From the NCBI GenBank assembly GCA_030447505.1, contig JAUJOT010000001.1, positions 476,295 through 540,294 on the forward strand: DNA of 64,000 nt. Reading direction: 5' to 3'. The position numbers were made by a program, and so were the translations under genes. This stretch comes from Solirubrobacteraceae bacterium (GTDB taxonomy: Bacteria; Actinomycetota; Thermoleophilia; Solirubrobacterales; Solirubrobacteraceae). Positions 6,524 to 26,705 of the stretch are shown one piece after another. The stretch's first letter is position 1, and each line of letters starts with the position of its first letter. Below the pieces are notes generated by a model. The model was not told the DNA's origin, made no database searches, and saw only the letters and a list, made by a program, of their open reading frames with translations.

Positions 6524-6560
6524 CGGCGATGCGCGGCGCCGCCGCGACCCTGAGGAGAAC

Positions 6561-6743: not shown

Positions 6744-7058
6744 CCCGAGCCGGCGGCCTCGCGCAACCAGACGTCAACGGCATGTCAGAGCCGCGGGCGA
6801 CGTTGCAGCTTCCTGCATCTACTCCTGCGGCAACGATCCTGGCTCTGGCCGAAAGCCGCTGTTATCGTGAGCGCGGGCTCCTCGACGATCAGAACCCGCC
6901 GCAGTCGGATGCAGCGGGGCCGGCCGAGCCGAGCCGGAAGGAGCTTCAGGCGGTCATCGACGGGCTGCCGCCGCAACCGGGGTCTGCTCGCGTGCGGGTA
7001 CGCTAAAAAGGGTAGTGGGATCTCGACGAATGGCGCACGGAGGTGACCGGGGAGCATC
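6744..7058. other. intergenic region without a supported gene
   Basis: 315 bp between the IS21 debris and the sugar transferase. A 74-codon frame here (6782-7006) has no ribosome site and no recognisable domain, so I do not call it. The last 30 bp contain GGAGGTGACC and GGGGAG, serving the gene at 7059. Confidence 0.5.
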
Positions 7059-7772
7059 ATGAGCATCGACGCAGGGACGCATTGCACCGAGCTGACGCTC
7101 CTCGATGCCAGGGGCCTGCCGCAGGGGATGCATGAGCAGGCGATCCCGACATCTCGCGAATGGGAATGCGCGAAGCGCGTATTCGACGTCATCCTGGCCA
7201 GCGTGGTGCTGGTGCTGCTCAGCCCGCTGCTCGCGCTGGTCGCGCTGGTCATCAGGCTCGACAGTTCGGGACCACTGCTCTTCCGTCAGGAACGCTACGG
7301 TCGCGGACGCAAGCCCTTTGTCGTCTTCAAGTTTCGCTCCATGCACGATGGTGTCTCGCCCGACGCCCACCGGCGCTACATCGCGCAGCTCGCGACGGCC
7401 GAGGACGAGGTCGGTCCAGGACTCAAGAAGCTCGTCGACGACCCACGCGTCACGCGCGTCGGCAGGTTACTGCGGCGCACGAGCCTGGACGAACTCCCCC
7501 AGCTGGTCAACGTCTTGCGCGGCGAGATGTCGATCGTCGGACCGCGGCCCGCACTGGCGTACGAGCTCGAGTTCTACGAGCGCGAGCACTACGCGCGCTT
7601 CCTCGTCCGTCCAGGGCTTACGGGTCTGTGGCAGGTCCGCGGACGCAGCGAGATCGGCTTTCACGGCATGCTGGCGCTCGACGCGGAGTATGCGCGAACC
7701 AGCGCGCCGCGCGTCGACGCGGTGATCCTGCTGCGCACGCCACTGGCGATCCTGCGCGGAAAAGCCGCCTGA
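7059..7772 (+). CDS. initiating sugar-phosphate transferase (WcaJ/RfbP C-terminal type)
   Basis: A 237-residue bacterial sugar transferase that moves a sugar-1-phosphate from a nucleotide sugar to undecaprenyl phosphate, the first step of lipid-linked glycan assembly. It has one hydrophobic membrane hairpin ([21 protein letters not shown]) and the family motifs [42 protein letters not shown] and [10 protein letters not shown]. It is the short form, without the N-terminal four-helix module. The ATG has GGGGAG upstream. A close paralogue is at 25989-26705. The next genes run the other way. Confidence 0.92.
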
Positions 7773-7841: not shown

Positions 7842-8933
7842 TCAGATGTACCGGTAGAGGACGTCTCCGACTCGCGCCGTCACCGAGAGCGGAAGCCTCT
7901 GCCAGCCAGCACGTGCGATGCGCAGCGCCGGCGCCGCCGAACTCGCCACCCCTGCGGCGTCTTCTTCGAGCGGTGGGTCGTGATACCGATACAGCCGCTG
8001 AGGAACGGCCCCCCACTTCAGCTTGAACTGCGCCAAGCCGGGGTTCGCATCGGCGACCTCACCGAAGTCGTAGCGCCTGAAGCCGCGGCGCTGGGCCTCG
8101 TGGATCGCATGCCAATGCAGTGCATCGTTGGGCCGTAAGTGCAACTCGTCCTCGCGCCGCCCATTGAAGGCGAATACAACGGTCTGACTCGACATCAGAA
8201 AGATCGAGCCGGCGAGCAGATGCCGCGGCCGGCGCGCAGGCTGCTCCGCCAGCAACAGCTCCATCATCCCCGCTGGCTTCAGGACCTGCCACATCAGGCG
8301 GAAGAAGCGATATGGCCGCGGTGGCGCCACGTGATGGCGCATCGCCTCGAGGTAGAGCGGATACCAGGCGCGCAGGTCGTGCTCGTCCTGCGCGTGACGT
8401 ATCTCGACGCCGGACTTCGCTGCCTTGCCCACGGCGCGGCGGATGGTGCCGTGGTTGCGACTGCCGCCGAAGCGGAGCTCGGCTCTATCCTCCGGCAGCT
8501 CGAGCACGTATCCGGTGTCGCCCTCGACGCGTTGGAGGATGTCGTCAAGCACCTCGGCAGCGTCGGGCAGCGGCTTGAGCTGCAGCCGGATCCCGGCTGC
8601 GCGCGACCGCTCCGATGCCGCCAGGACCAGCGCGATGACGCCTTCGCGATGCGATGCGAGGGGTCCGCCGAGCGGTGAGCGGGGGAGTGACGCGAGCCGG
8701 GCCCCCGCGGCAACTCCCCCCAGCCTGAACGGCAGCCCTCGCGTGCGGCACAGCGGGAGGACGCCGACAACGTCGCCCCCGTCCTCGCACAGCAGGTTTA
8801 CGAAGCGGTCGCCGTAGTCGCTCGCCAGCACGCGCTGCCAGGCCGCGCGATGGTAGATCAGACCTTGGGGGTGGCCAGCGACGTATCGTTCCCAGCGTGC
8901 GTCGCTGGACGGATCGACCTCGATGACGCGCAT
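7842..8933 (-). CDS. FemAB/GNAT-like acyl- or aminoacyl-transferase (PF13480 type)
   Basis: A 363-residue protein of the double-GNAT FemAB-like group found in exopolysaccharide loci. Visible blocks are the N-terminal PQGLIYHRAAWQRVL, the mid-protein basic loop SRNHGTIRRAVGKAAKSG, and the C-terminal NDALHWHAIHEAQRRGFRRYDFGE followed by LAQFKLKWGAVP, which is the family's conserved last helix and strand. Family members transfer acyl or aminoacyl groups to sugar or peptide amines. ATG at 8933 is chosen by homology to the family start; the frame stays open to 9143 but that stretch is not protein-like. It is the last gene of the leftward operon, 190 bp after the decarboxylase-like gene. Confidence 0.8.
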   Translation of the reverse strand: MRVIEVDPSSDARWERYVAGHPQGLIYHRAAWQRVLASDYGDRFVNLLCEDGGDVVGVLPLCRTRGLPFRLGGVAAGARLASLPRSPLGGPLASHREGVIALVLAASERSRAAGIRLQLKPLPDAAEVLDDILQRVEGDTGYVLELPEDRAELRFGGSRNHGTIRRAVGKAAKSGVEIRHAQDEHDLRAWYPLYLEAMRHHVAPPRPYRFFRLMWQVLKPAGMMELLLAEQPARRPRHLLAGSIFLMSSQTVVFAFNGRREDELHLRPNDALHWHAIHEAQRRGFRRYDFGEVADANPGLAQFKLKWGAVPQRLYRYHDPPLEEDAAGVASSAAPALRIARAGWQRLPLSVTARVGDVLYRYI

Positions 8934-9123
8934 ATTTCTGCCGGTCTTGGTACCGCGGTGGTCGCCAGATTGGCGAGAGGCCGTCAGAGTACCGCGCTGC
9001 CCGTCCTGCGGCCGCGGCTGCCCGCGTTCTGCCACGCCTGGCGGCGTAGGATCTCCACCTTCAGTGGTGATCGTCGGTCCATTGCTTGCGCTCGCGCAAG
9101 GGGGCACATGCGGCTCGGCGCTC

Positions 9124-9963
9124 CTAGCTGCTGACCACCCCATAGGCAGGCGGTTCTGGCATCTCCCCCGGCGCGCGTTCGATCACCGCGACCACCGAGC
9201 CACCTGCGCGGACGCGATCGCCGGGAGCGACGAGCAGCCGCAGGTCCGGTCGCGCGGGCAGGACGAGGTCGACCTGAGAACCGAATCGGATCACGCCGAT
9301 TCGCTGCCCGAGCGCGACCTGTTCGCCCTCCTGCACGTAACTGAGAATCCTGCGCACCAGGCGCGACGCGATGAGGACGATGCCGACCTCGAGCGAGTCG
9401 TTACGTATCACCGTCGTCGCACGCTCGTTCCGTACGACGGCATCTTCACGCTTGAGCGACATGAACTGGCCGGCAAAGCGCCGTTGCAACGTCACCTCGC
9501 CCTCGACCGCGGCGCGGTTCACGTGCACGTCAAGAAAGCTGAGTGCGATACCGACCACGATCGCGTCGTCGCTCGATAGCCGCGTTCGGACCAGCTCCTC
9601 GAGCGAGAACTCGCGTCCGCCCTTGACGGAGGCCGGCAGGACGCCGCCGGACGACTGCTTCACGTAGATGACGGTTCCGTCAGCGGGGCTCACGACGACG
9701 TCGTCCCGATCGGGCGCCACGCGCTCGGGGTCGCGATAAAAGCGCCAGAGCACGATGAGCCCGGCAAGAGCGAGACCGCCGAAAAACACGAGCGATCCGG
9801 CGAGCAGCGGTGGCATTTCGATGGTGGCGAGCACGGCAGCAATCGTGACCGTCAGCGCGAGTACCACGAGCGCGCTGCGTCGGACGCCAAGCTCCCACTT
9901 CAAGGCCAGTAGCGACGCGGCCGTCACGGCCAGCGTTACGCCGAAAACGGCTGCGGCAAGCAC
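9124..9963 (-). CDS. phosphatidylserine decarboxylase-family protein (membrane-bound)
   Basis: A 279-residue pyruvoyl-type decarboxylase. Two or three N-terminal membrane helices (residues 1-22, 31-48, 52-72) are followed by the Psd core: SPADGTVI (92-99), DVHVNRAAVEG (145-155) with the conserved His, and RFGSQVDLVLP (226-236). The Gly-Ser pair at 228-229 is the expected self-cleavage site that creates the pyruvoyl group. GTG at 9963 begins 1 nt after the stop of the ATP-grasp gene. The family decarboxylates serine on phospholipids to ethanolamine; position inside a glycan operon suggests it may act on another seryl conjugate, or supply phosphatidylethanolamine as donor (inference). Confidence 0.85.
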   Translation of the reverse strand: MLAAAVFGVTLAVTAASLLALKWELGVRRSALVVLALTVTIAAVLATIEMPPLLAGSLVFFGGLALAGLIVLWRFYRDPERVAPDRDDVVVSPADGTVIYVKQSSGGVLPASVKGGREFSLEELVRTRLSSDDAIVVGIALSFLDVHVNRAAVEGEVTLQRRFAGQFMSLKREDAVVRNERATTVIRNDSLEVGIVLIASRLVRRILSYVQEGEQVALGQRIGVIRFGSQVDLVLPARPDLRLLVAPGDRVRAGGSVVAVIERAPGEMPEPPAYGVVSS

Positions 9964-9964
9964 C

Positions 9965-11143
9965 TCAGTACCCCTTTTGCACGATGAGGTAGGGCAGCAG
10001 CGCAGCTTCCGCGACGAACGGCAGCGGATCGTCGCGCGCCAGCACCGCCTCCGTGTCGAGACCGCGCAGCGATCGCAGATACGCCCGCAGGCCAAGCCTG
10101 CCGGCGGCGAGCTCGCGCAGGGCCGTCGGCGTGTCGGTCAGCAGCCTTATCCAGCGAACGCCGGCGCGCGCTCGCTGCGCCGGAGGGGGGGTCTCCCCCA
10201 TCTGGTCCGCGAACAGCAGCGCCGGAAAGTCGACTCCTGCGGCCGCCCCAAGCGAGTGATAGCCCCAGGTCCGGGCGTTGACGTCGAGCAACTTGTAGAT
10301 CCGGTCCCGCGGGTCGAACATGTACTCGAGCTCTACCAGCCCGTAATAGCCGATGTCCGAGAGGAACTTGGTCGACGGCTCCTCCAGCGCGGGGAGCTCG
10401 ACTGTCTCCACGAGCGTACTGGCCCGCCCGAACTGTGGCGGGTGTTGACGCAAACGGCGGACGGTCATGCTCGCCGCGGCACGACCGTCCTTGAAGAAGG
10501 CGCAGTAGGCGACGCGGTCGCGCCCCGTCCCGGGGATGAGCTCTTGGACGAGGATCTCCCCGGGATCGGTTATCGCGGCCGCCTCTCGGTAGGCCCGCAA
10601 GAGCTCATCGATCGTGTCGGCCCGCCAAGCCTTCGCTTTCGTCTCGTAGAAGAAGTGCTCCTTGATCGCTGGCTTGATCACGAGCGGCAGGTGCCGCGCG
10701 AGCGCGGGCAACTCAGAGGGATCGGACGGTTGCCACGTCCGGGGAGTGGGGATGCCAAGTGCTCGGGCACGGCCGTAGGTATTCCGCTTGTCCCAGGCCC
10801 ACTGGACCGCATCCCACTCCGGGGTCGGGATCCGGTACAGGCGCGAAAGCTCCGAGCGGTGACGGGAGCAGGCGGCGACGGTCTCCTCACGCGTGGGGAA
10901 GACCACCCATCCAGCGAGGCCCAGTCTACGACCCATCCCAAGCAAGGCTGCGACGCAATGCGACTCGTCGCGTAGATCGCGAACGCGGAGGTAGTGGGTG
11001 ACGTATCGCGAGAACCGCGCGATCGACGCCTCGTCATCGATCACGCAGACAGACGCGCCCCGCCGCCCGATGCTGCGCGCGATGGCGAGCCCCTGGTAGT
11101 CGCCCCCTACCACGACGGCGCCAGCTTGTCGGAGGTCCGTCAC
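9965..11143 (-). CDS. ATP-grasp ligase
   Basis: A 392-residue ATP-grasp enzyme of the carboxylate-amine/thiol ligase superfamily. The N-terminal pre-ATP domain (AVVVGGDYQGLAIARSIGRRG) is followed by the ATP-grasp fold with LPLVIKPAIKEHFF, EILVQELIPG, the acidic GLVELEYMFD and the metal-binding LLDVNARTWGYHSL. Substrates are not evident; the family joins a carboxylate to an amine at the cost of ATP. It lies 94 bp after a GT2 gene and 1 nt before the decarboxylase-like gene, so it is probably translated together with the latter. Confidence 0.85.
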   Translation of the reverse strand: MTDLRQAGAVVVGGDYQGLAIARSIGRRGASVCVIDDEASIARFSRYVTHYLRVRDLRDESHCVAALLGMGRRLGLAGWVVFPTREETVAACSRHRSELSRLYRIPTPEWDAVQWAWDKRNTYGRARALGIPTPRTWQPSDPSELPALARHLPLVIKPAIKEHFFYETKAKAWRADTIDELLRAYREAAAITDPGEILVQELIPGTGRDRVAYCAFFKDGRAAASMTVRRLRQHPPQFGRASTLVETVELPALEEPSTKFLSDIGYYGLVELEYMFDPRDRIYKLLDVNARTWGYHSLGAAAGVDFPALLFADQMGETPPPAQRARAGVRWIRLLTDTPTALRELAAGRLGLRAYLRSLRGLDTEAVLARDDPLPFVAEAALLPYLIVQKGY

Positions 11144-11237
11144 GATTGGCCTGATTGTATGGAGCGACGATCGGCTTGACCGCGGACACAGGCCGCCGGG
11201 TCATGTCGAGGAGGGCGACCGGACGACGCGCGCGACG

Positions 11238-12185
11238 TCAGCCGCGATCGGCGCTCCCGGTAGCGGTGAAGGCAGGACCGCCTCCCGGCAGCGGCGCCGC
11301 AGGCAGCGTGAGCCGCCCGCCGGCGAACGCACGGAGGCGCATTCGCTGCTCGTACTGAAGGAGCGCCGTCGCCCGTTCGTCCGCGAACTGCGGGCTGCCC
11401 TCGAGCCGCGCCTGTGCATAGCCTGCCAACAGAAGCAGGCCGCTCGCGACCGGGGGGCGCTCGACGAGCATGCGGTACACCGCGCGCACGAGCAGGAAGC
11501 TCGGCAGGTACCCCATGAAGTGGGTGCCACGCCCCTCCTCCAGCCGAGCCCGCCACCAAACCTGCTTCGATCCGCGCTGCTTGTAGTGCAGGAGGTGTAG
11601 CTCCGTCAGAACATGCACGCGCCAGCCGCGAGCGCGCGCCGCGTACTCATCGATCCCGTCCCACCCCATCGAGGCGGGCAGACCGCCGATGTCGTCCAGG
11701 CAGTCTGTACGGTACGCCTTGGCGACCCCGTTGACCGCGATCTGCTTGCCGGGATCGGTGCGCCACTGCTGGCCGTCATTGATCAGTGCGACGCCCCCGA
11801 CGACCCCCGCTTGCGGATCGTCAGCAAAGACGCGCGCCACCCACGCGAAGTAGTGGGCGGGAAGGAAGAGGTCGCCGTCGAGCTTGACCGTGACGTCCGG
11901 GCGTACGTCAAGGCGTCGGCGTCCGGCGTTGAAGGCGCGGACGATCGGGGCGCCTCGAGCGCGTGCGTGGTGCTCGTCGGAGTTGATGAGCTCGATCCAT
12001 TCGTGCTCCGCGGCGTACCGCGCTGCGATCTCGTGCGTGCCGTCGGTCGAGCCGTCGTCAACCACGATCCACTGCTGTGGACGGTGCGTCTGCGCGAGGA
12101 TCGATTCGGCGGTGCGCTCGAAGTCCGCTGCCTCGTCGCGTACAGGGGAGACAAGCGCGTACGTGGGCAGTGCTTCAGGCGACAT
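11238..12185 (-). CDS. glycosyltransferase family 2
   Basis: A 315-residue GT-A enzyme. The start YALVSPVRDEAADFERTAESIL leads into the nucleotide-binding IVVDDGSTDGTHEIA, then VTVKLDGDLFLP with the DxD metal site, and GWDGIDEYAARARGW. No membrane helices are clear except a weak C-terminal hydrophobic stretch. ATG at 12185 overlaps the upstream GT4 by 11 nt and has a GAGGAG-like site; an ATG-less extension to 12224 is less likely. It is part of the seven-gene leftward operon. It shows some likeness to the GT2 at 14207-15082 (both keep a KLDxDLxLP block), suggesting old duplication. Confidence 0.88.
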   Translation of the reverse strand: MSPEALPTYALVSPVRDEAADFERTAESILAQTHRPQQWIVVDDGSTDGTHEIAARYAAEHEWIELINSDEHHARARGAPIVRAFNAGRRRLDVRPDVTVKLDGDLFLPAHYFAWVARVFADDPQAGVVGGVALINDGQQWRTDPGKQIAVNGVAKAYRTDCLDDIGGLPASMGWDGIDEYAARARGWRVHVLTELHLLHYKQRGSKQVWWRARLEEGRGTHFMGYLPSFLLVRAVYRMLVERPPVASGLLLLAGYAQARLEGSPQFADERATALLQYEQRMRLRAFAGGRLTLPAAPLPGGGPAFTATGSADRG

Positions 12186-13383
12186 CCGCGATGAACTCCT
12201 CCGATCGGTCGAGATAGGCGTCAAGGGTGAACGACGCCGCCCGCGCCCGCGCCCTCACGGTTCGCGCGGCAGTCGCTGCTTGATCGGCGAAGACGGCGGC
12301 CACGGCGGCCGCGCACGCCGCCGCGTTCCCCGGCTCGAAGAGCAACGCGTGCTCGCCGTCGCGCAATCCTTCGGGGATCCCACCGGCGCGCGAGGCGACG
12401 ACGGGCACGCCGGCGAGGGCCGCTTCGAGAGCGACCAGCCCGAAGGTCTCGTGCTCGAGCGACGGCATCAACGCTACGCGCGCTCGAGAGAGGACGGCGG
12501 CCAGCCCCTCCGGAGAGAGGTGCCCCAAGTGCTCGACCTCCTGCGCGACGCCCAGCTCGCGCCCCACCGTGTCGAGCCTGCGGCGCATCGCCGGTGTGCA
12601 CGTGCCCGCGAACACGAGGCGGAGGTCCACGCCGTGGTCGCGCCGGACGTGGGCGAGCGTCTCCAGGGCGACCTCGGCGCCCTTGGCCGTCGTGACGCGG
12701 CCGATGTAGGCGGCCATCGGACGAGCGTCGGGTGCGTGCTGCACCGCGGCGAAGACGTCGGGACGCGGCGTTGCCGGATGGATGACGCGCTCGAGCATCG
12801 GATCGATCGCCGCCGGCACGCCGGCCTCCGTCCGTAGCGAGGCACTGGCCCACGAGATCGCGGCGGGGAACCGCAGGCCCGCGTCGATCCGCAGCGGCGG
12901 GAGGCGGTTCACCGCGCGGAGCAGGCGCGCCCACGCGCCGCGCGCGCCACACTCACCGGGCGTCAGGTGCCGAAGGAACCGATCTCCGCTCAGGAAGGCG
13001 CTGGCGTAGAAGAGCTCACTGAACCGGCAGATCACGGGCGCCCCGGCGGTGACGGCGATAGCGACGACTGATTGGGGCATCGACACGCCGTTGGAGACGT
13101 AGATGAGCTCTGGCCCGAAGCGCCCGAGGACGCGTCGCGCCTCCACCGCCCCCTGCAGCGCGGCGACGGGGGCCCGAAGGACCGCGCGATGTCGCCCGCC
13201 GCCCGCGAAGGGCAACGAGCGGAGAACGCCGGTATCAGGGGGGGCGGTGTCGCGCCGGAGGTCGGACGTCAGGACGAGAACGTCGTGGCGCAGCCGCAGG
13301 CGGTCGACGAGCGCCGCGCATTCGAGTTCGTAGCCGCCGAACGCGACCGGAGGGAAGAGGTCGGATAGCACGAGGATCCGCAT
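12175..13383 (-). CDS. glycosyltransferase family 4
   Basis: A 402-residue GT-B retaining glycosyltransferase. It starts with the typical MRILVLSDLFPPVAFGGYE, and has the sugar-nucleotide domain AYIGRVTTAKGAEVALETL and the E-x7-E-like block SLEHETFGLVALEAALAGVPVVAS. In thiol or glycolipid pathways (MshA, BshA, PimA) this family makes the first glycosidic bond, and here it sits next to a PIG-L deacetylase as in those pathways. Start is 2 nt after the PIG-L stop. Confidence 0.9.
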   Translation of the reverse strand: MRILVLSDLFPPVAFGGYELECAALVDRLRLRHDVLVLTSDLRRDTAPPDTGVLRSLPFAGGGRHRAVLRAPVAALQGAVEARRVLGRFGPELIYVSNGVSMPQSVVAIAVTAGAPVICRFSELFYASAFLSGDRFLRHLTPGECGARGAWARLLRAVNRLPPLRIDAGLRFPAAISWASASLRTEAGVPAAIDPMLERVIHPATPRPDVFAAVQHAPDARPMAAYIGRVTTAKGAEVALETLAHVRRDHGVDLRLVFAGTCTPAMRRRLDTVGRELGVAQEVEHLGHLSPEGLAAVLSRARVALMPSLEHETFGLVALEAALAGVPVVASRAGGIPEGLRDGEHALLFEPGNAAACAAAVAAVFADQAATAARTVRARARAASFTLDAYLDRSEEFIADVA

Positions 13384-13385
13384 GG

Positions 13386-14210
13386 CTACCTCGCCATCGG
13401 CCAGAAGACCTCGAAGCCGTGGATTCGCCGCTCGCTGAGCTGCCCGATCGGTCCCCGGTCGAGCATCGCGAACTGAGATCGGTACGTCCGCATCGCCGCG
13501 AGCTTCGCGGCAGCAACGCCGTCCTCGAGCGCGACCACCCGCGCGTGCGCGCCGTCGAGCGACGCTAGGTGCGCACCGCTGGCATGCCAGGAAACCTCCG
13601 GGTCCAGGCGGGGATGCGGCGGCTCGCCTGTGACCCAGTACGGCCATCCGAACTGGATCGCGTACGGCACATCGGCGTACAGCTCGACGGGGACGCCGGC
13701 GCCGCGCAGCGCAAGCGCGTAGGAGCGCACGAGCATGTGGTCGGGGTGCACGGTCCCGAGGACGGCCGGGGCCAGCACGAGCGACGCCGCCGGCAGTGCG
13801 GCGACCAGCGCCGCGTCAAACCGGCTCAGGCTCGGCGCCTGACGCGCCGAGCGGTAGGGATCGGCGGCGAAGGAGAGGGCGATCGACTGGCGCCCTGCCA
13901 ACGCGAGCGCCTGGCGGTCCTCGACCAGCCGCTCGGCCATCAGCGAGGCGGAGTCGTCGGCTCGGCACAGACGGTCCCAATGCGCCAACGTCCCTGCGGG
14001 GGGAGAGGCCGTGAAGACGTTGACCACCGTGACGTCGCGGTCGGCCGTCAGCAGTGACCAGCAATTGATCACGGCGTCGTCGAGGTGCGGGGAAAGGACG
14101 ACGGCGGGGGCCGCAGGATCGACCCGCAGGCGCGAGGTGAAGCCGCGGTCGCGAATCGCGCCCAGCGCCCTCCACGCATACCGCTCGAGCCGCTCGATCT
14201 GGCGCTTCAC
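13386..14210 (-). CDS. PIG-L family deacetylase
   Basis: A 274-residue zinc deacetylase of the PIG-L/MshB/BshB family, which removes the N-acetyl group from GlcNAc-containing conjugates. The zinc motif SPHLDDAV (Pro-His-x-Asp-Asp) is near residue 40, and the second metal ligand is probably in TVHPDHMLVR. GTG at 14210 overlaps the stop of the preceding GT2 by 4 nt (GTGA). A free amine made here would be the natural acceptor for the ATP-grasp or FemAB-like proteins coded downstream in the same operon (inference). Confidence 0.9.
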   Translation of the reverse strand: MKRQIERLERYAWRALGAIRDRGFTSRLRVDPAAPAVVLSPHLDDAVINCWSLLTADRDVTVVNVFTASPPAGTLAHWDRLCRADDSASLMAERLVEDRQALALAGRQSIALSFAADPYRSARQAPSLSRFDAALVAALPAASLVLAPAVLGTVHPDHMLVRSYALALRGAGVPVELYADVPYAIQFGWPYWVTGEPPHPRLDPEVSWHASGAHLASLDGAHARVVALEDGVAAAKLAAMRTYRSQFAMLDRGPIGQLSERRIHGFEVFWPMAR

Positions 14211-15082
14211 CGCGCGCGGCCCGCCAGGCGATCGCGCACCCGCCCGTACTGCGCGCGGCGCACGAACGCACGCACCTCGGTAGCGGCGCGGGGCTGGCGC
14301 CGCAGCGCGGCCGAGAGCCACCCCGCGACGTAGTTGACCGGTCCCAGGGGCGGCCTGCGATCGGCCAGCTCACGGCCGGCCAGCAGCATGGTCACCGGCA
14401 GCGGCTCGCCGAACGCGTAGGCGCACTCCCCCCAGCGACGGTGGGCACGCAGCAGGCCGTCGTATGCACCGCGAGGCCGCAGGTGCAGCGGGTCCCCGCC
14501 GGGAAGCGCGAAGCTCCGCGTCGTCCACCCGTGCAGCTGCGCGGTGAGCTCGTCGATCGTGTCCCATCCGAGGATCGGCGGGACGGGAGCGATCTGCTCG
14601 AAGCAGGCGCGGCGGTAGAACTTCGTCGCGCCGTGCACGTGGCACTCCCGCGCCGAGACGCGCCGTACGACGCCCGCCTCGTCGCGCTCAGAGAGGAAGG
14701 TGCCGGCGATACCGAGCGTCTGGTCCTCCTCCAGCCGTTCGAGCAGGTGACCCAGGGTGCACGGCGGCAACTCCAAGTCGGCGTCGAGCTTGGCGACAAC
14801 GTCCCACGCCAGATCCAGCCGCTCGACGCCCCACTGGAAGGCCAAGAACTCTGACGCACGCGCGAGCCGATCGCTGCTCCGGGCCTGTCGTGGGCGCTGC
14901 AGGACGCCGGCGTACGGGTGGTCTTCGGCGAAGGCGGCAGCGAGTCGGAACGAGTCGTCCTCTGAGCCGTCGTCGACGAGCAGCAGCCGATCCGGTCGGC
15001 GCTCCTGCGCCTCGATCGAGGACAGAAGCCGCCCGAGAACCTCCGCCTCGTTGAGGAAGGGAACGACGACAGCGAGTCGCAT
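14207..15082 (-). CDS. glycosyltransferase family 2, first gene of a leftward operon
   Basis: A 291-residue GT-A enzyme starting MRLAVVVPFLNEAEVLGRLL, with LLLVDDGSEDDS, VVAKLDADLELP (DxD) and ILGWDTIDELTAQ. ATG at 15082 is preferred over an upstream in-frame start at 15118, because the family begins at this motif. A C-terminal segment after residue 230 is hydrophobic and may associate with the membrane. The promoter should lie in the divergent gap 15083-15306. Confidence 0.87.
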   Translation of the reverse strand: MRLAVVVPFLNEAEVLGRLLSSIEAQERRPDRLLLVDDGSEDDSFRLAAAFAEDHPYAGVLQRPRQARSSDRLARASEFLAFQWGVERLDLAWDVVAKLDADLELPPCTLGHLLERLEEDQTLGIAGTFLSERDEAGVVRRVSARECHVHGATKFYRRACFEQIAPVPPILGWDTIDELTAQLHGWTTRSFALPGGDPLHLRPRGAYDGLLRAHRRWGECAYAFGEPLPVTMLLAGRELADRRPPLGPVNYVAGWLSAALRRQPRAATEVRAFVRRAQYGRVRDRLAGRAR

Positions 15083-15138
15083 CGAGCACGGAGCGTACTC
15101 AGGCGTAGCTCTGCCCAAGAGCCCGTCAACGGTCGGTC

Positions 15139-15185
15139 GACGTTCGTGCGACGCCCGCCAGCCGCAGGTGGACGTTCGTGCGACG
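15139..15185. repeat. 15-bp direct repeat in a divergent promoter region
   Basis: GACGTTCGTGCGACG occurs at 15139-15153 and again at 15171-15185, exactly 32 bp apart, which is about three helical turns. A third partial copy (GACGTTCTCG) follows at once. The repeats lie between the leftward GT2 operon and the rightward secreted protein and could be a regulator site. Confidence 0.45.
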
Positions 15186-15306
15186 TTCTCGCGAGGACAT
15201 CAAGAGCACGCCGACGCGGTCCGAATCACTGCCTCATAGGGGGCGCTGCCTCCACTTCAAGGACACGCCGCTGGCGCCCGCCCGGCGCCAAACGGGGAGG
15301 ACTCCG

Positions 15307-17574: not shown

Positions 17575-19056
17575 TCACGTCGAGGACGCGGCCGCCGGCT
17601 GCGGCGGTCGGGATCGCCCGAAAGCACGGCGCAGCTGGGCCAGCGCCTGCGATAGGAGCTTCGGGCTGAACAGTCGGACCGCGGCAAGGTACACGATGAG
17701 CGCGACGGCGGAGGCGGCGACGAGAGCGAGAAGCGGCGAGCCGTTCGCGAGCGCTCCGGCCGTCCAGTGCGTCGCCGCCCAACTGACGGCCGATGCCATG
17801 AAGAGCGGGTGCAGCGTCGCCCATTGTCGCGCCACGGAGACGCCGGTGACGCGCTGCACGTTGACCATCAGCAACGCGAACAGCAGGGCCATGTGAGCCA
17901 GAAGTACCCAGGCGACCGCCGTGATGCCCCCGCGGCTCGACGCGACAAAGAGGCCGACGACGAAGGGCACGAGCATCGCGACCGAGATGAGGCCGACGCG
18001 TCGCGCCTCGCCGATCGAGTTGAGCAGCCAGGCGAGGGTCACCTCGAGCGGTCGGGCGACCGCCCAGATCCCGAGGACGCTGAGCACGCCGATCATGGGC
18101 AGCCACTGCTCGCCGAAGAGGGCGCGGGTGAACGGCTCGGCCGCGGCGCTGAGGATCACCGCGAGGGGACACGTCGCCAGCGCCACGAGCCGCAGGCCGG
18201 ACAGGAACGACGGCATCACGTCCTCGCCGCGATGCCGCATTGCGGCGAAGCTCGGGAAGGTGACGCGAGCGACGGGGTCGGCGATCGCGTAGTGCGGCAG
18301 CTCGGCCTGTCGGTAGGCCATCGAGTAGAAGCCCAGCTGGGCTGTGGGGAGCACTCGGCCGATGACGATGTAGTCGGCGTTCTGCTGCAGGTATGCCGCT
18401 CCGTCCTGCAGCACGAAGCCGCTACCGGTGCGCAATGCGTCGCGGGCCAGTCGCCGGTCGAACGTCGGCCGGACCCGGTAGGGCGCGAGGCACAGCAGCG
18501 CGATCCCCCGCGACGTATGACCCGAGATGTGCGCGGCGACCAGCGCCCAGACGCCGGCACCCTGCAGGGCGAACGCGAGGGCGACCGCGGAGAAGACGAC
18601 CGTCGAGACGATCTGGGTGACGAAACGCCGCTTGAAGGCAAGCTCGCGCTGCAGAAGCGAGTCGTAGAACCAGTTGACCCCCGTGAAGGAAAGGATGCCG
18701 GCCATCGCCAGTAGCACGTCGACCAGCCGCGGCTCGTCGAACAGGTCGGCGGCCAGCGGAGTCAGCGCCGCCAGCAGAGCCGCGAACGCGATCCCCGTCA
18801 GGAGCAGGAGGCTCAGGATGGTGCCCTGGCCGCGCCGATCGAGATCCTGGCGCAGCACGAGCGTCGTGCCGAGCCCGAGGCCGCTGAACTGGCTGATGAA
18901 GCCGGTCCCCAGCATCGCCAGCGCGAAGAGCCCGAAGTCGGTCGGGACCAGCAGGCGAGCCAGGAGGATTGTCGTCGCCACCGACACGACCCGGTTGGCC
19001 GCGTACGACAGCATCGTCCACGGTATCCCCTTGACGGCGCGATCATCCACCGGCAC
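17575..19056 (-). CDS. polysaccharide flippase (Wzx/MOP superfamily)
   Basis: A 493-residue multi-pass membrane protein with about 12-14 hydrophobic helices. The N-terminal pattern GIPWTMLSYAANRVVSVATTILLARLL followed by DFGLFALAMLGTGFI is characteristic of the polysaccharide biosynthesis/MviN-type exporters, and the central ADYIVIGRVLPTAQLGFYSMAYR is also conserved. It would flip lipid-linked repeat units across the membrane. It starts ATG or GTG at 19056, 54 bp from the divergent asparagine-synthase-like gene. Confidence 0.9.
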   Translation of the reverse strand: MPVDDRAVKGIPWTMLSYAANRVVSVATTILLARLLVPTDFGLFALAMLGTGFISQFSGLGLGTTLVLRQDLDRRGQGTILSLLLLTGIAFAALLAALTPLAADLFDEPRLVDVLLAMAGILSFTGVNWFYDSLLQRELAFKRRFVTQIVSTVVFSAVALAFALQGAGVWALVAAHISGHTSRGIALLCLAPYRVRPTFDRRLARDALRTGSGFVLQDGAAYLQQNADYIVIGRVLPTAQLGFYSMAYRQAELPHYAIADPVARVTFPSFAAMRHRGEDVMPSFLSGLRLVALATCPLAVILSAAAEPFTRALFGEQWLPMIGVLSVLGIWAVARPLEVTLAWLLNSIGEARRVGLISVAMLVPFVVGLFVASSRGGITAVAWVLLAHMALLFALLMVNVQRVTGVSVARQWATLHPLFMASAVSWAATHWTAGALANGSPLLALVAASAVALIVYLAAVRLFSPKLLSQALAQLRRAFGRSRPPQPAAASST

Positions 19057-20928: not shown

Positions 20929-20987
20929 AGGTGACGGCCCAGTAACGACAAGCGTCTCGGCCGCTCTGATCGCCGTGCCATCATGGC

Positions 20988-22463
20988 GTGATGTCGGCCG
21001 TCGCCGAACGTCAGCTCCTGGCGCTGCCTGCGGCGCTCGCCGCAGCGCTGCTGGGCGTGCTCATAGGGTTGCAGCCGCTCGCCGCCATCGCCCTCGCCGG
21101 CCTCGCCGGCCTGATGCTGCTCACGCTCGTCGCGCCGATCGCGCACCTGACACTGTTGATCATCCTCACGGCGATCGTGCCCCACCAGCTACAGAACGCG
21201 GTGGGAGGCGGCGGCGCCGGCCTCGTGGCCTCCGACGCCGTGCTGCTCACCGGGCTGGCGCGCGGCGCGTTCGTCCTTGCCCAGCGCCGGCTGAGGACGA
21301 GCGAGGTCGTCGGCATCGCGCTCACGCTGCTGGTCCTCGCGGCCGCTGCCCTCCAGTTCGTACACGGCGTCCGCGGCGGAGCTCCGCTCAACGTCGCAGG
21401 CGACGAACTGCGGACGCTGCTCGGCTTTGGGGTGGTGCTCGTCGCGTTGCCCATCCTGCAGGACGAGGAGCTGCGCCCGCGGCTCCTGAAGGCCCTGCTC
21501 GGCATCGGGCTGCTGCTCGGGCTCTGGGGGATCGCGCAGTGGTCGCTCAACCTCCCGTACTTCGCGGGCGCTGGCGTGCGTGAGGGGGTCGCGCTCACCA
21601 GTTCGGGGCGCGGCCAGCTGCAGGGCGGCCTGTACGCGTTCCCGGTCGCCATCACGCTGGCCTTCGCGGCGCTGATGTCGGGCGCTGTCCGGGCGACGCT
21701 GGGGCGGGTCGCGCTGGGCTTCTGCATCGCCCTCAACGCGATATGCGTCCTGCTCACGTTCGAGCGCACCTTCTGGGTGGTGACGATCGTCGCGTGCGCC
21801 TTCGTCGTCCTGCGTGCCGGTCGCGGACAGCGCGCGCGCGCGATCGCTTTGACCCCGGTGGTCGTCGTGGTCAGCATGATCCCGCTGGCGTTCCTCGCTC
21901 CTGACACGCTCACGACGGCTCGTGAACGCCTGCTGTCGCTCAACCAATACAGCAGCGACAGCTCGGTCGCCTACCGCCTGCGGGAGTCACAGCAGATGAT
22001 CGAGGAGATCCGTATGGCTCCACTCGTCGGCTCTGGTCTCGGAGCCTCGATCTGGTGGGGTCGCCCGGCGTCCGACGTGCCCCCGTCCGTCAACTACTTT
22101 GCTCACAACGGCTACCTCTGGTCGGCGTGGAAGCTCGGAATCCCACTTGCGATCCTGCTGTGGGGCTCGATCTTCCTGGCGATCCTGCGGCGAGGGCGGG
22201 TACCGGGAGACCGGGTCTTCGCGGGCGTCGCGCTGGGCGCGCAGGCATCCGTACTTGCGCTCGCGATCGCTGCGGTCACGTTCCCGAGCGTCGCGTCGAA
22301 GACCATCACTGCCACGATCGGCCTGCTGCTCGCATTCTGCGTGCTTCCGCGCAGCAGAGCGCCCGCTACCGGCGGATCTTCTGCTGAGATCCGCAGCGGT
22401 TTGGTTCAAGGGCCTCAGCCGCCCCGGCGACCGACCGCTGCCGCCCATCCGGGTCTTCATTGA
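20988..22463 (+). CDS. O-antigen ligase/polymerase (Wzy_C, WaaL-like) membrane protein
   Basis: A 491-residue protein with 11-12 hydrophobic helices. The large periplasmic loop includes RERLLSLNQYSSDSSVAYRLRES and the end pattern APLVGSGLGASIWW-, then NYFAHNGYLWSAWKLG, the family's conserved His-containing loop motif (His-N-x-Y-L). It polymerises or ligates lipid-linked glycan. GTG-ATG at 20988/20991 gives the start. It lies 24 bp before the end of the converging GT4-deacetylase fusion gene. Confidence 0.88.
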   Translation: MMSAVAERQLLALPAALAAALLGVLIGLQPLAAIALAGLAGLMLLTLVAPIAHLTLLIILTAIVPHQLQNAVGGGGAGLVASDAVLLTGLARGAFVLAQRRLRTSEVVGIALTLLVLAAAALQFVHGVRGGAPLNVAGDELRTLLGFGVVLVALPILQDEELRPRLLKALLGIGLLLGLWGIAQWSLNLPYFAGAGVREGVALTSSGRGQLQGGLYAFPVAITLAFAALMSGAVRATLGRVALGFCIALNAICVLLTFERTFWVVTIVACAFVVLRAGRGQRARAIALTPVVVVVSMIPLAFLAPDTLTTARERLLSLNQYSSDSSVAYRLRESQQMIEEIRMAPLVGSGLGASIWWGRPASDVPPSVNYFAHNGYLWSAWKLGIPLAILLWGSIFLAILRRGRVPGDRVFAGVALGAQASVLALAIAAVTFPSVASKTITATIGLLLAFCVLPRSRAPATGGSSAEIRSGLVQGPQPPRRPTAAAHPGLH

Positions 22464-22488: not shown

Positions 22489-24777
22489 TCAAGTGCCACC
22501 GGTGTCGAACACGATGCGCCCGTCGCGCTCCTGAGCGTGGGCCACCGTTGGCACGTAATCGCAGGCACCGGCGACTTGTGGCCGCCCGTCACGGTCGTGG
22601 ATGACGCTCAGATCCTCGCGCTGGCGCCACCAGCGGGCGACGTCGCGCGGCAAAGCGTGCCAGCCGCCGGGCTGCGCCACGAGGAAGGCCAGGAAGCGGT
22701 CATAGAGCTCCAGTCGCGCCGAATCGACGACGTAGTCGGGATGGACGATGAGGTTGATGAGGCCGTGGTGGCGCATGATCCACTTGCTCTTCTGTAGCCA
22801 CCGGTCGATCCCCGGCTCGCGCAGGATCTCCCACATCGTGTGATCCTGGACGAGGGTGATCGGCAGCTCGACGACGTCTCCGAAGCGGAACGGCAGAATC
22901 GAGCAGCAGCCGCCGGACTGGGGCTCGAAGGGATCTGTGTCCGGGAACGAGCTGTCGTAGAGGACCGGCAGCTCGCGCATCCAATCGGGATTGCGGTGCG
23001 TCGCGGGCGAGCGGAAGCCGACGGCGTCCCACTCTGCGAGGTAGCGGCAGATGAGCGGCAGCTGGCGCTCGAACGACGCGCGGTCGCGGAACAGCGAGCC
23101 GTCGTGGTGAATTCCGTGCAGCCCGATCTCGCAGCCCTCGGCCCGTAGCGCCTCGAACAGCCCGTTGGGCAGCGGGTACCCCTCCGCGACGAAGTTCCAC
23201 GAGGACACGAAGCCGTGGCGGCGCTCGACCTCGCGCACGCGCTCGATGTTCGCGACGCCGCGCGGCCCCTCCACGTCGTGCGTGAGCGCTACTGCGTAGC
23301 GGCGACCCTCCGGCCAGAAGTTGACGAGCGGCACTCGGCCGTCGGGCGCGTCGGCGAGCTTGCGCCAAAGCTCGGCGTCGCGGAGCTCGACGAGAACCGG
23401 TTCGGCCGGCCACGCCGGGAACGCGCGGCGCGCCTGCACTCGAGCGTAGCCGCGGCGGACCGCGATCTGCAGCCGGCGCGGCAGCAGCGGCTTGACCGCA
23501 TAGTAGGCGCGAATCGCCGCGGAACGGCGGCGGGTGCCCTCGTAGCGCTCGTAGAGGAAGTGCTCCTCGCCGGTCTCCTCGGCGGCCGGCTGCGAGCGCA
23601 AGACGCCCTCGATGTAACCGCGGTAGACCTCTCGCTGTCGGGGCCAGCGGTAGGGCTCGAGCGCCTGCGTCGCGTGGCGCACGCGCGCGGAGCGCCGCGC
23701 GCCGTCGCCATGCAGGCGCACGATCGCGTCAGCCAGCGCAGTCGGGTCTTCGGAGTCGAAGTATTCGAAGCTCTCGTCGTCGAAGTAGGCCTCCACAGAG
23801 CGGGTGCGCGACATCAGTACCGGCCGGCGCATCGTGACCAGGTCGTACATCTTGTTGCAGTGGGTGAGGTCGCGGAACGCGTCACGCTTCATCGCCACCA
23901 AGCCGGCGTCGCAGCCGGCGATCGCATCCAGCAGCACCGGCAGCGCCACCCAGCGGCCGTTGATCTCGACTCGGTCAGCCACGCCGCGCTGCGCCGCCAA
24001 CGCGCGCGCCCCTTCGACATAGGAGCCATCCCCCATGATCTGCAACCGCAGGCCTGGGATCTCGTCGCGCAGCAGCGCGACCGCCTCGATCGCCGTGTCG
24101 ATCCCGTAGCGCTGCTCGACGGAGCCGTGACAGAGGATCACAAAGGCGCCGTCCTCGCTGCCGCGGGGCGGATGGCGCTCGACGTCGAAGACGTCCTCCT
24201 CGGAGGAGTTGAGCACGACGCCGATGCGATCCGGGTCCGCGCCACGCGCGATGAATGCCTCGCGCATCTCCTTTGTGCAGGTGAACGCGAAGTCCGCGAA
24301 GCGGATGCTCGCCTGCTCCGTCGCCGCCACCACGCGCCAGGGCACGCTGCCCGCCGCCGCACCGAACTTCGTCCCGAAGAACTCGGTCATCATCTCGTGC
24401 AGGTCGAGCACGACGCGTGCGCCGAGCGCCTTGGGGATCGCCGCCGCGAAGACGAGGAAGTCCGGCAGCGAGTGAACCTGGACCAGCGCGTAGCGGCGGC
24501 GCAGGTGAAGCGCGCCGCTGAGCAGTGCGGCGACGAGCAGGAAGAGGCCGTAGCGCAGCGTGTAGCCCGCGGGGGACCGACTGGGGCTCCTCATCGCGGC
24601 GGGGAGGCGGTAGACGGTGAGCGCAGCGGTGCGCTCGCGCCACCGCTCGCCGTCCTCGCGGACGCTGATCACGTCGACTTCGTGGCCGGCGTCGAGCAGT
24701 GCGGCCACCTCGCGCCGGACGCGGGGGTCGAAAGTAATCGAGTTCTGGCGGATGACGAGGATCCGGTCAGCCGCCAT
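22489..24777 (-). CDS. GT4 glycosyltransferase fused to a NodB-type polysaccharide deacetylase
   Basis: A 762-residue two-domain protein. Residues 1-~410 form a GT4 (start ILVIRQNSITFDPRVRREVAALL; LHEMMTEFFGTKFG, VILCHGSVEQRYGIDTAIEAV). After a linker, ~490-740 hold a carbohydrate-esterase-4 fold: ALTHDVEG (first catalytic Asp/zinc Asp), IGLHGIHHDG (His pair), GFRSPATHRN and LIVHPDY. Glycosyl transfer and deacetylation in one chain would modify the freshly added sugar. The zinc D-H-H set seems intact. ATG at 24777 is preferred; a TTG at 24801 would make a 4-nt overlap with the aminotransferase stop. Confidence 0.87.
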   Translation of the reverse strand: MAADRILVIRQNSITFDPRVRREVAALLDAGHEVDVISVREDGERWRERTAALTVYRLPAAMRSPSRSPAGYTLRYGLFLLVAALLSGALHLRRRYALVQVHSLPDFLVFAAAIPKALGARVVLDLHEMMTEFFGTKFGAAAGSVPWRVVAATEQASIRFADFAFTCTKEMREAFIARGADPDRIGVVLNSSEEDVFDVERHPPRGSEDGAFVILCHGSVEQRYGIDTAIEAVALLRDEIPGLRLQIMGDGSYVEGARALAAQRGVADRVEINGRWVALPVLLDAIAGCDAGLVAMKRDAFRDLTHCNKMYDLVTMRRPVLMSRTRSVEAYFDDESFEYFDSEDPTALADAIVRLHGDGARRSARVRHATQALEPYRWPRQREVYRGYIEGVLRSQPAAEETGEEHFLYERYEGTRRRSAAIRAYYAVKPLLPRRLQIAVRRGYARVQARRAFPAWPAEPVLVELRDAELWRKLADAPDGRVPLVNFWPEGRRYAVALTHDVEGPRGVANIERVREVERRHGFVSSWNFVAEGYPLPNGLFEALRAEGCEIGLHGIHHDGSLFRDRASFERQLPLICRYLAEWDAVGFRSPATHRNPDWMRELPVLYDSSFPDTDPFEPQSGGCCSILPFRFGDVVELPITLVQDHTMWEILREPGIDRWLQKSKWIMRHHGLINLIVHPDYVVDSARLELYDRFLAFLVAQPGGWHALPRDVARWWRQREDLSVIHDRDGRPQVAGACDYVPTVAHAQERDGRIVFDTGGT

Positions 24778-24797
24778 GACGGTGGAGCACCTCGTCT

Positions 24798-25952
24798 TCA
24801 AGCTCGATCCGCACGCCGCGTATCAGACGGCAGCAGCTCAAGCGCGCCCTCTAGGACGCCGCAGACGCGGTCGACCTCTGCCGGCCGTAGGCCCGGGAAG
24901 AGCGGCAGCGAGAGGACGCGTCGCGCCGTCCGCTCACAGGCGGGCAGGTCGCCGGGGCCGTAGCCGAGGTGCCGCCAGCCCGGCTGCAGATGCACCGGCG
25001 TCGGGTAGTGCACGCCGCTGGCGACGCCGGCCTGGTGCAGCCGAGCGCGCAGGGCATCGCGGCCGTCCAGCTCGACGACGAACAGGTGATGGACCGAGGT
25101 CATGTCGGGCGCGTCCGCGGGGGGCAGGGTGAGGGGCAGGTCGGCCAGGCGCTCACGATAGCGCGCGGCGAGCGCACGCCGTTCGGCGTTCTCGGCGTCG
25201 AGCACGGGCAGGCGCAGGCGCAGCAGTGCGGCCAGCAGGTTGTCCAGCCGCTCTGTGCGCCCGACGCGGTCGTGGATGTTCGCGTCGCCCGGCGCCGAGC
25301 CGTGGTGACGCAGCGAGCGCACGAGGGCGGCGACGTCGGCGTCGTCGGTCACGACCGCCCCGCCGTCGCCCATCGCGCCGAGGTTCTTCGTCGGGTAGAA
25401 CGAGAAGCAGCCGGCGCTGCCCAGCGACCCCGTCCGTCGCCCACCCAGCAGCGCGCCGTGTGCCTGCGCTGCGTCCTCGATCACGGCGACGCCGTGCGGC
25501 GCGCAGGCGGCGTGGATCGCGTCCATGTCCGCGGGGCGTCCGTAGAGGTGCACCGGCACGACGGCCGCCGTGTTCGGACCCAGCGCCGCCGCCAGCTTCG
25601 TCGGATCGATGCAGCGCGTCGCGGGGTCGATGTCGACGAGCACCGGCGTCGCCCCCGTCGCCGCGATCGCCTCGACCGTGGCCACGAACGTATGCGCGAC
25701 CGTGATCACTTCGCTGCCGGGCCCGGCGCCGCAGGCCCGCAGCGCGAGTTCCAGCGCGACGGTGCCGTTGGCGACGCCGACGCAGTGCGCGGTGCCGCAG
25801 AACGCCGCGAACTCGGCCTCGAAGGCCGCCAGGTCCTCCCCCAGGCTGAACGCACCGGCGGCCGCGATCCGCTCGAAGACCGCCAGCGCGGCCTCGCGCT
25901 CGGTCGACCAGCGGCGCGTCAGGTCGAACAGCGGCAGCGCGTCCGCGCTCAC
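24798..25952 (-). CDS. DegT/DnrJ/EryC1/StrS-type sugar aminotransferase
   Basis: A 384-residue PLP enzyme that makes amino sugars by transaminating a keto nucleotide sugar. Blocks: GVANGTVALELALRACG (PLP phosphate pocket), VHLYGRPADMDAI, VIEDAAQAHGA with the conserved Asp, and the Schiff-base lysine in FYPTKNLGAMGDGG. Residue length is typical. It is transcribed before the GT4-deacetylase fusion and 36 bp after the sugar transferase, so the three look like one operon. The dehydrogenase at 30418-31560 is a plausible partner in the same sugar pathway. Confidence 0.94.
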   Translation of the reverse strand: MSADALPLFDLTRRWSTEREAALAVFERIAAAGAFSLGEDLAAFEAEFAAFCGTAHCVGVANGTVALELALRACGAGPGSEVITVAHTFVATVEAIAATGATPVLVDIDPATRCIDPTKLAAALGPNTAAVVPVHLYGRPADMDAIHAACAPHGVAVIEDAAQAHGALLGGRRTGSLGSAGCFSFYPTKNLGAMGDGGAVVTDDADVAALVRSLRHHGSAPGDANIHDRVGRTERLDNLLAALLRLRLPVLDAENAERRALAARYRERLADLPLTLPPADAPDMTSVHHLFVVELDGRDALRARLHQAGVASGVHYPTPVHLQPGWRHLGYGPGDLPACERTARRVLSLPLFPGLRPAEVDRVCGVLEGALELLPSDTRRADRA

Positions 25953-25988: not shown

Positions 25989-26705
25989 TCAGGCCGCGTT
26001 TCCGCGGACGAGCGCCAGCGGCGTGCGCAGCAGGATCATCGCGTCGACACGTGGGCTGGAGGTGCGGGCGTACTCCGCATCCAGCGACAGCATGTCAAGG
26101 AAGCTCACGCCGTTGCGCCCGCTGACCTGCCACAGCCCGGTGATGCCGGGGCGGACGTCGAAGCGCCTGAAGTGCTCTGACTGGTAGTGCTCGAGCTCGT
26201 AGGGCAGTGCCGGGCGCGGGCCGACGATCGACATCTGCCCTCGCAGGACGTTGACGAGCTGGGGCAGCTCGTCGAGGCTCGTCTTGCGCAGGAATCTGCC
26301 GACGCGCGTGATCCGCGGGTCCCCGGTGAGCTTCTTCAAGCCCGGACCGGCGTCGACTCCGGCGCTGACGAGGTGGGCGATGTAGCGCCGGTGGGCATCG
26401 GGCGACGCTCCGTCATGCATCGTGCGGAACTTCAGCACCATGAAAGGCCGCCGGCCGCGACCGCAGCGCTCCTGGCGAAACAGCACCGGCCCCCGCGTGT
26501 CGAGCCTGATGGCGACGGCGATCAGCGCGAGCAGCGGGGTCAGCACCACCAGCAGGACCGCGGCGAGGAGCACGTCGATGGTGCGTTTCGCGCCTTCCCA
26601 GCGATGCGAGATGGGGGTGCTCGTCGAAGCGTCCGGGCGCTGTGGCGGCGCCTGCGCGACGGGGCTAGGATCCAGCTGGACCGCCGTGCTCGCGTCAAGC
26701 CTCAT
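25989..26705 (-). CDS. initiating sugar-phosphate transferase, paralogue of 7059-7772
   Basis: A 238-residue short-form initiating glycosylphosphotransferase, very similar to the one at 7059. The same blocks are present: [23 protein letters not shown] hairpin, [52 protein letters not shown]. The extra N-terminus (about 35 residues, Pro/Ser rich) replaces the other paralogue's leader. It is the first gene of the leftward group with the aminotransferase and the GT4-deacetylase fusion. Confidence 0.92.

Follow-up and report, generated by a model that had tools for sequence, protein, structure and literature searches.

The window, as we call the whole 64,000-nucleotide stretch of Solirubrobacteraceae DNA analysed here, carries within a glycan operon a gene resembling phosphatidylserine decarboxylase (Psd) next to one for an ATP-grasp ligase, which raises the question of what the two may do together in such a setting. 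The original prediction read them as parts of one seven-gene pathway, in which an amino sugar is deacetylated, joined to an amino acid and decarboxylated to an ethanolamine-like group. Open reading frame calls and Pfam families confirmed seven genes of the predicted families, all on the minus strand, at positions 7842-15082 (Table 1), with two assignments less secure in Pfam: the PIG-L protein scored just under the cut-off (26.8 vs. 28.2 bits) with its SPHLDD and HPDH motifs intact, and the ATP-grasp protein gave only weak matches of the ATPgrasp_Ter/CPSase_L_D2 type, but its AlphaFold2 model (pLDDT 80) has an ATP-grasp fold similar to 2pn1, RizA and PylC. The tight packing also held for most genes, with spacings from overlap to 94 bp and a single base pair between the ATP-grasp stop and the GTG start of the Psd-like gene, except that the gap between the Psd-like and FemAB-like genes is larger, about 190 bp with the FemAB start placed at 8933.

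Table 1. Genes of the seven-gene interval and of the surrounding polysaccharide locus (positions in the window).
Feature	Position	Strand	Evidence and remarks
Bac_transf sugar-phosphate transferase, second	7047..7772	+	PF02397 3.6e-58
FemAB-like/GNAT_6 transferase, downstream of Psd-like gene	7842..8933	-	PF13480 1.2e-16, FemAB 8.9e-9
Psd-like pyruvoyl decarboxylase, FGSQVD clade	9124..9963	-	PF02666 5.6e-39, GTG start at 9963, clade signature, tree
ATP-grasp ligase, distinct subfamily	9965..11143	-	Fold, subfamily tree, adjacency to Psd-like gene
GT2 glycosyltransferase	11238..12185	-	Pfam; local partner, no match in other pair loci
GT4 glycosyltransferase	12175..13383	-	Pfam; local partner
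PIG-L-like deacetylase	13386..14210	-	PF02585 8.1e-6; local partner, no homologue in other pair loci
GT2 glycosyltransferase	14207..15082	-	Pfam; local partner, no match in other pair loci
Wzx-type flippase	17575..19056	-	PF13440 1.5e-66
Wzy/O-antigen-ligase-like protein	20970..22463	+	PF04932 1.9e-12
GT4 fused to NodB-like deacetylase	22489..24801	-	Similarity to other pair loci, aligned motifs
DegT/DnrJ/EryC1 sugar aminotransferase	24798..25952	-	PF01041 7.6e-113; relatives in L067, L068, L069
Bac_transf sugar-phosphate transferase, initiating	25989..26705	-	PF02397 1.7e-61; homologues in most pair loci

The unit conserved across genomes is the ATP-grasp gene together with the Psd-like gene, and not the seven-gene pathway. 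In a survey of 1346 genome searches, complemented by a single pattern scan, the Psd-like clade was found in 12 genomes of three phyla, the window's own among them. The same ATP-grasp subfamily was encoded in the Psd-like locus of all 12, immediately upstream and on the same strand in 11; in the remaining genome (G121) the ATP-grasp gene has a disrupted frame and is separated by 2.7 kb from the Psd-like gene, which lies on the other strand. Within one phylum the Psd-like gene occurred in 8 of 82 genomes, and ATP-grasp matches of at least 478 bits were obtained in the same eight, the next best reaching 270 bits; ignoring phylogeny, the chance of hitting the identical eight is 1/C(82,8) = 2.8e-11. 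The trees of the two proteins have sub-groups in common, and their distances are correlated (r = 0.55, a value attained in 0 of 2000 permutations). The predicted functional link between these two genes was thus borne out in the form of a conserved and uncommon pair, and we regard it as highly probable that the two form a functional unit with a role other than phosphatidylserine decarboxylation.

The other genes of the interval did not travel with the pair. Neither the PIG-L gene nor either GT2 gene has a homologue in the 11 other pair loci, where matches to the GT4 were weak and generic, hence the seven-gene order expected at the outset is not conserved. The set is physically present in the window, but its reading as one GPI- or mycothiol-like route combining PIG-L deacetylation, ligation and decarboxylation was rejected for this lack of conservation and is in our judgement very improbable. 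The proposed likeness to mycothiol and bacillithiol synthesis also failed, since the GT4 scored far below the MshA (78.7 vs. 462.5 bits) and BshA (69 vs. 273.7 bits) cut-offs and the PIG-L protein matched no NCBIfam model at E ≤ 0.01, those of MshB/BshB type included; the GPI analogy rested on the same non-conserved PIG-L gene. The deacetylase that does recur beside the pair lies outside the seven-gene interval, as the NodB-like C-terminal half of the GT4-deacetylase fusion. This fusion aligned with its counterparts in loci L067, L068, L069 and L125 at 442, 291, 197 and 195 bits, respectively, and HxxxH and other motifs of its NodB-like half align, at a Pfam score below threshold.

The simplest alternative would be that the Psd-like gene encodes an ordinary phosphatidylserine decarboxylase, supplying phosphatidylethanolamine either to the membrane or to a phosphoethanolamine decoration step. 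It is the sole PF02666 gene of its genome, scores well over the family cut-off (134 vs. 22 bits) and retains the catalytic Asp, His and Ser, which in the alignment are near-universal (D102, H154, S236). Nonetheless, PF02666 genes were detected in only 9 of the 299 genomes of the window's class, and the Psd-like gene is absent from three genomes of the same genus. The search for PssA in the window's genome covered the PF01066 type, as distinct from the PLD type, and none was recognised: the PF01066 matches all fell below TIGR00473 and correspond to PgsA, a PgsA/Cls-like protein, phosphatidylinositol phosphate (PIP) synthase and one weak match. Around the Psd gene itself, pssA was found at 0 of 12 loci of the clade as against 36 of 37 canonical Psd genes. 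Four other carriers of the pair (G300, G301, G303, G347) also hold a separate canonical-type psd, which is adjacent to pssA in all three carriers for which the locus was read. A housekeeping role was therefore rejected, in line with what had been anticipated, and we consider the ordinary enzyme quite improbable.

Comparison with true Psd clades, proposed together with the prediction, pointed the same way. The protein remained under every NCBIfam Psd cut-off (at best 159.1 of 183 bits for NF003685, and 153.6 of 230 for TIGR00164) and grouped in a separate PF02666 clade with its own signature, the tree support being moderate (83/84). The clade is marked by Gln in place of the canonical Arg after the catalytic Ser and by an insert of about 20 residues, and in the alignment K121, L128, S176, L177, S207, R208, V210 and Q237 are fixed in it and unlike canonical Psd. 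Hydrophobic segments at the N-terminus usually number three in the clade, as in the window's protein, two in canonical Psd and none in the soluble GSQ_b group, and this enlarged hydrophobic region fits a membrane-anchored substrate. A sequence search of the PDB found nothing at a threshold as loose as E ≤ 1, the structure model was too poor for fold comparison, and Psd homologues retrieved in a plasmid search shared at most 38% identity, several of them being annotated next to pssA. Its partner likewise forms a separate subfamily in the tree of its family, while the fold search with the ATP-grasp model was unspecific, returning CPS-like proteins, RizA, PurK, PylC and biotin carboxylases.

The neighbourhood of the pair is a polysaccharide locus, in which Pfam identified two sugar-phosphate transferases, a flippase, a Wzy-like protein and a DegT aminotransferase besides the GT4-deacetylase fusion. 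IS elements were observed on its left flank. The Psd-containing loci that were read in other genomes are likewise of the polysaccharide type and encode initiating transferases or chain-length proteins, with the exception of L070, which was informative only in its downstream genes. These surroundings speak against the pair modifying some other target (a small metabolite, for instance, or the head group of a polar lipid) and simply accompanying glycan operons, an explanation to which the hydrophobic N-terminus and one genome holding the ATP-grasp subfamily without any PF02666 gene (G150) lend some weight, and which we deem improbable. The gene directly following psd encodes a formyltransferase in 7 of the 12 loci, a SAM methyltransferase in L125 and a FemAB-like protein in the window and L067; FemAB/GNAT_6 homologues were present in five other pair loci overall.

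The FemAB-like protein also bears on the possibility that the product of the pair is an amine, on a lipid or a sugar, that serves as nucleophile for protein sorting. Such a role has a precedent in haloarchaea, where HvPssA and HvPssD are needed for ArtA-dependent lipid anchoring (PMC7157517), and the FemAB-like protein resembles the XrtA/PEP-CTERM-associated FemAB (TIGR03019), although at 119.7 bits it stays below the cut-off of 260.35. The Psd-like protein likewise fell short of the archaeosortase-associated PssD model (NF038088, 108 vs. 240 bits), and none of the 12 genomes carrying the pair yielded an exosortase (PF09721) above the cut-off. An exosortase nucleophile was consequently rejected, and a sorting function appears extremely doubtful.

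Taken with its setting, the pair most likely adds an amine group to a surface sugar polymer. As to how, we tentatively favour, at somewhat short of even confidence, a ligase and a membrane decarboxylase that act as an amine installer of the exopolysaccharide with ligation preceding decarboxylation; slightly more guardedly, the ATP-grasp enzyme may load an amino acid on a lipid-linked sugar, which the pyruvoyl enzyme of the Psd family may decarboxylate in place. At the expense of ATP, the ligase would charge a glycan held in the membrane by undecaprenyl, or the carrier of that glycan, with the amino acid in such a way that both the alpha-amino and the alpha-carboxyl group stay free, and the membrane-anchored decarboxylase would then remove CO2 to yield a primary amine, comparable to the conversion of phosphatidylserine to phosphatidylethanolamine. 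A neighbouring transferase might tailor this amine, the FemAB-like/GNAT_6 protein being a candidate amine acylase in the window, with the formyltransferase or the SAM methyltransferase in its place elsewhere. The predicted joining of an amino acid and its decarboxylation to an ethanolamine-like group therefore stands, by inference, as the leading mechanism, without the PIG-L step, which is not conserved. A search of the literature collection available to us retrieved no paper joining phosphatidylserine decarboxylase to ATP-grasp in an exopolysaccharide or gene-cluster setting, or to polysaccharide deacetylase.

The two enzymes might instead work in the reverse order, the Psd-like protein decarboxylating a soluble amino acid (e.g., serine or phosphoserine) and the ATP-grasp coupling the amine to a glycan carboxylate. 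PsiD of Psilocybe, a PF02666 relative, indeed acts on a free amino acid. In Campylobacter jejuni, Cj1436 converts serine phosphate to ethanolamine phosphate, which is then attached to glucuronic acid as an amide by the ATP-grasp domain of Cj1438 (PMC12409886, PMC11800379), and the ATP-grasp of our pair could equally act after the decarboxylase. The membrane domain of the decarboxylase is, however, enlarged, no TupA-type ATP-grasp match was obtained in Pfam, and a UDP-sugar dehydrogenase homologue, which would make the uronate, was found in only 1 of the 12 loci (L125), so that a universal uronic-acid acceptor was rejected. We judge this order unlikely, if still worth serious consideration.

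Genes of PF02666 are routinely annotated as phosphatidylserine decarboxylase. Subfamilies with Gln after the catalytic Ser and the K121 insert differ in their gene partners and probably in their substrates as well, and this annotation is therefore likely wrong for them. Should the ligation-first model hold, a pyruvoyl enzyme would be added to the means of polysaccharide decoration, with a possible route to positively charged exopolysaccharides in some bacteria; it would represent a new enzyme function, producing amine-bearing exopolysaccharides in several phyla through phospholipid-type chemistry on glycans. The carriers of the pair include a named culture-collection strain, Geodermatophilus ruber DSM 45317, which makes the idea directly testable.

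Among described systems, the canonical short-type Psd of psd-pssA operons shares with the Psd-like clade the family, the FRDP membrane motif, SPADG, VHVNR and the GS autocleavage motif, while the clade differs in GSQ instead of GSR, the additional insert and a third hydrophobic segment, and has the ATP-grasp gene in place of pssA as genetic partner. In butirosin synthesis, BtrJ and BtrK follow a similar ligate-then-decarboxylate logic with an ATP-grasp enzyme, but the substrate is bound to a carrier protein, the decarboxylase is PLP-dependent and the product is an antibiotic rather than a polymer. To our knowledge, the ATP-grasp/Psd pair is not part of the HfsH/HfsK set described for the Caulobacter holdfast. 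That adhesin locus resembles ours in combining a polysaccharide deacetylase with a GNAT-family N-acyltransferase (PMC5362036). Haloarchaeal PssA/PssD with archaeosortase provides a PF02666 enzyme in cell-surface assembly (PMC7157517), whereas our pair has neither a PssA partner nor an exosortase. Mycothiol and bacillithiol synthesis (MshA-D, BshA-C) has the GT4 and PIG-L folds in common with the window, which differs in its decarboxylase and in scores far under the MshA and BshA cut-offs. Cj1436 of C. jejuni is PLP-dependent, unlike the membrane-bound pyruvoyl decarboxylase of the PF02666 family found here. In the HS:2 capsule cluster of that species (Cj1436, the Cj1438C amidoligase and the Cj1435 phosphatase) decarboxylation comes first and the ligase is TupA-like, of another ATP-grasp subfamily than ours; nonetheless, a decarboxylase and an ATP-grasp enzyme are likewise brought together in a polysaccharide cluster, in our case by family membership, and in C. 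jejuni an ethanolamine-type group is placed on the glycan (PMC12409886, PMC11800379).

The seven minus-strand genes of the original prediction (GT2, PIG-L deacetylase, GT4, GT2, ATP-grasp, Psd-like and FemAB-like) are present as described, within a longer polysaccharide locus that includes two Bac_transf initiating transferases, a flippase, a Wzy-like protein, a DegT aminotransferase and a GT4-deacetylase fusion. The source genome measures 3.84 Mb with a completeness of 97.65% (window, C3:476295-540294); among named sources, the locus has its closest relative in a Thermoleophilaceae MAG, with Geodermatophilus ruber close behind. An IS-rich flank, together with same-genus genomes that lack both Psd and ATP-grasp, fits a horizontal gain.

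Coordinates of the features discussed, by locus
Locus	Position	Strand	Feature
Window	1834-6358		IS-rich left flank directly adjoining the polysaccharide locus: Mutator-family transposase, IS21-type istA/istB pair
Window	7047-7772; 25989-26705	opposite strands	Stand-alone Bac_transf paralogues flanking the locus
Window	7842-15082	-	Seven predicted genes
Window	9124-9963	-	Psd-like decarboxylase
Window	9965-11143	-	ATP-grasp ligase
Window	15178-17535		Two tandem secreted proteins between operon and flippase; C-terminal domains alike, no Pfam match
Window	38651-42602		purD and purB-like lyase (purine genes), sandwiched by polysaccharide gene blocks
Window	42892-44532		Third, full-length Bac_transf
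L054 (Thermoleophilaceae MAG)	226-1125; 4627-5901; 5996-7336; 14176-15267		Secreted lysozyme-like ORF, four near-identical copies around the Psd cassette
L055 (G150)	8143-11228		Psd-less ATP-grasp with a flavin monooxygenase-like gene (Pyr_redox_3, Lys_Orn_oxgnase) preceding it

The set as a whole did not recur, since PIG-L and both GT2s have no homologue in the 11 other loci carrying the ATP-grasp/Psd pair and GT4 has weak, generic matches only; the conserved unit is the pair. Aligning the Psd-like protein of the window with its Thermoleophilaceae counterpart led to relatives in Geodermatophilus, Calditrichaceae and two 'bacterium' MAGs, and profile searches added six carrier genomes, all in the phylum of both MAGs. 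In this small clade (n = 12, gathered by a single pattern scan plus a few searches by taxon) the same ATP-grasp subfamily occurs in all 12 loci, immediately upstream of the Psd-like gene and on the same strand in 11; the ATP-grasp reading frame is broken in the MAG G121. Among 82 genomes of the MAGs' phylum, eight have the Psd-like gene (at least 242 bits, locally built profile), including G355, a 144-bit partial match in an earlier profile search, and exactly those eight have an ATP-grasp of at least 478 bits, the next-best scoring 270; the chance of identical sets is 2.8e-11, shared ancestry not being allowed for. Both trees contain the sub-groups window/Thermoleophilaceae/Geodermatophilus and Calditrichaceae/G347, and their pair distances correlate (r = 0.55; 0/2000 permutations as high). 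One genome, G150, has a subfamily member without any Psd, for which the flavin monooxygenase-like protein is possibly an alternative amine-modifying partner.

Two operon types recur around the pair. Type A (window, Thermoleophilaceae, Geodermatophilus, Calditrichaceae, G347) shares a NodB-like deacetylase, with recognisable motifs and a Pfam score under threshold, and several of its loci have DegT and FemAB. In Type B (seven loci) a Formyl_trans_N gene comes straight after Psd, accompanied by one for a B12-binding radical SAM protein; six have an upstream deacetylase-like protein, Wzc and an epimerase, the L070 contig bearing different upstream genes. Given these formyltransferases, the SAM methyltransferase directly after Psd in G347 and the FemAB/GNAT_6 homologues (window, L067, L069, L126, L127, L128), the gene after Psd mostly belongs to an enzyme class able to modify amines, a pattern rather than a proof.

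The original prediction counted it as a refutation if no standard psd lay elsewhere in the genome, the gene then simply being the housekeeping Psd. It is indeed the genome's only PF02666 match, which taken alone would fit that reading; against it, such matches are scarce throughout the class (9 of 299 sampled genomes), and no PssA was recognised. Three same-genus genomes likewise have no PF02666 match. The window's genome thus probably does not supply what a true Psd would act on: in a search covering PssA of the PF01066 type rather than the PLD type, none of its PF01066 enzymes (PgsA, a PgsA/cardiolipin-synthase-like protein, PIP synthase, one weak match) comes near the PssA cut-off. Four other carriers (G300, G301, G303, G347) have a second, canonical-type psd separate from the operon-linked one, adjoining pssA in all three of these genomes for which the locus was read.

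All 37 distinct canonical Psd sequences, mostly from two phyla, have Arg after the catalytic Ser; 36 of their genes adjoin pssA and none the ATP-grasp of the pair within the ~1.5 kb read on each side. The 12 clade members instead all have Gln there, with an insert of ~20 residues bearing an invariant Lys121, and none of their loci has pssA; positions 207-208 are Ser-Arg rather than Gly followed mostly by Leu/Ile, and hydrophobic N-terminal segments are usually three rather than two. This contrast is strong, though not a universal proof; the Psd-like fold model was of poor quality. Two further Gln-type PF02666 groups exist without this ATP-grasp, which suggests that Gln-type proteins have generally shifted to other substrates. 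One (L057, L058, L059, L060; G296 twice, G162, G132) precedes a dimethylargininase-like protein (PF19420), has zero hydrophobic N-terminal segments and is probably another amino acid decarboxylase; a MATE-like exporter lies near some of these genes. The other (FGSQCD; L121/L131 and L122/L132, in G590 and G489) adjoins NAD-epimerase/reductase-like and other biosynthetic genes.

Pyruvoyl enzymes require a free alpha-amino group adjacent to the carboxylate. As the ATP-grasp takes the place of pssA, it is suggested to make the decarboxylation substrate or to use the product. The membrane domain would favour a lipid-linked substrate for the Psd-like enzyme, and thus ligation first and decarboxylation second. 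A literature search found no description of a PS-decarboxylase-family enzyme in polysaccharide decoration paired with this ATP-grasp subfamily, a weak sign of novelty, and decoration of a polysaccharide by a decarboxylase and an ATP-grasp is in principle already known. Decarboxylation before ligation is a serious rival to the ligation-first order, being that of the C. jejuni capsule route, whose decarboxylase and ATP-grasp are of types unrelated to those of the pair (PMC12409886, PMC11800379).
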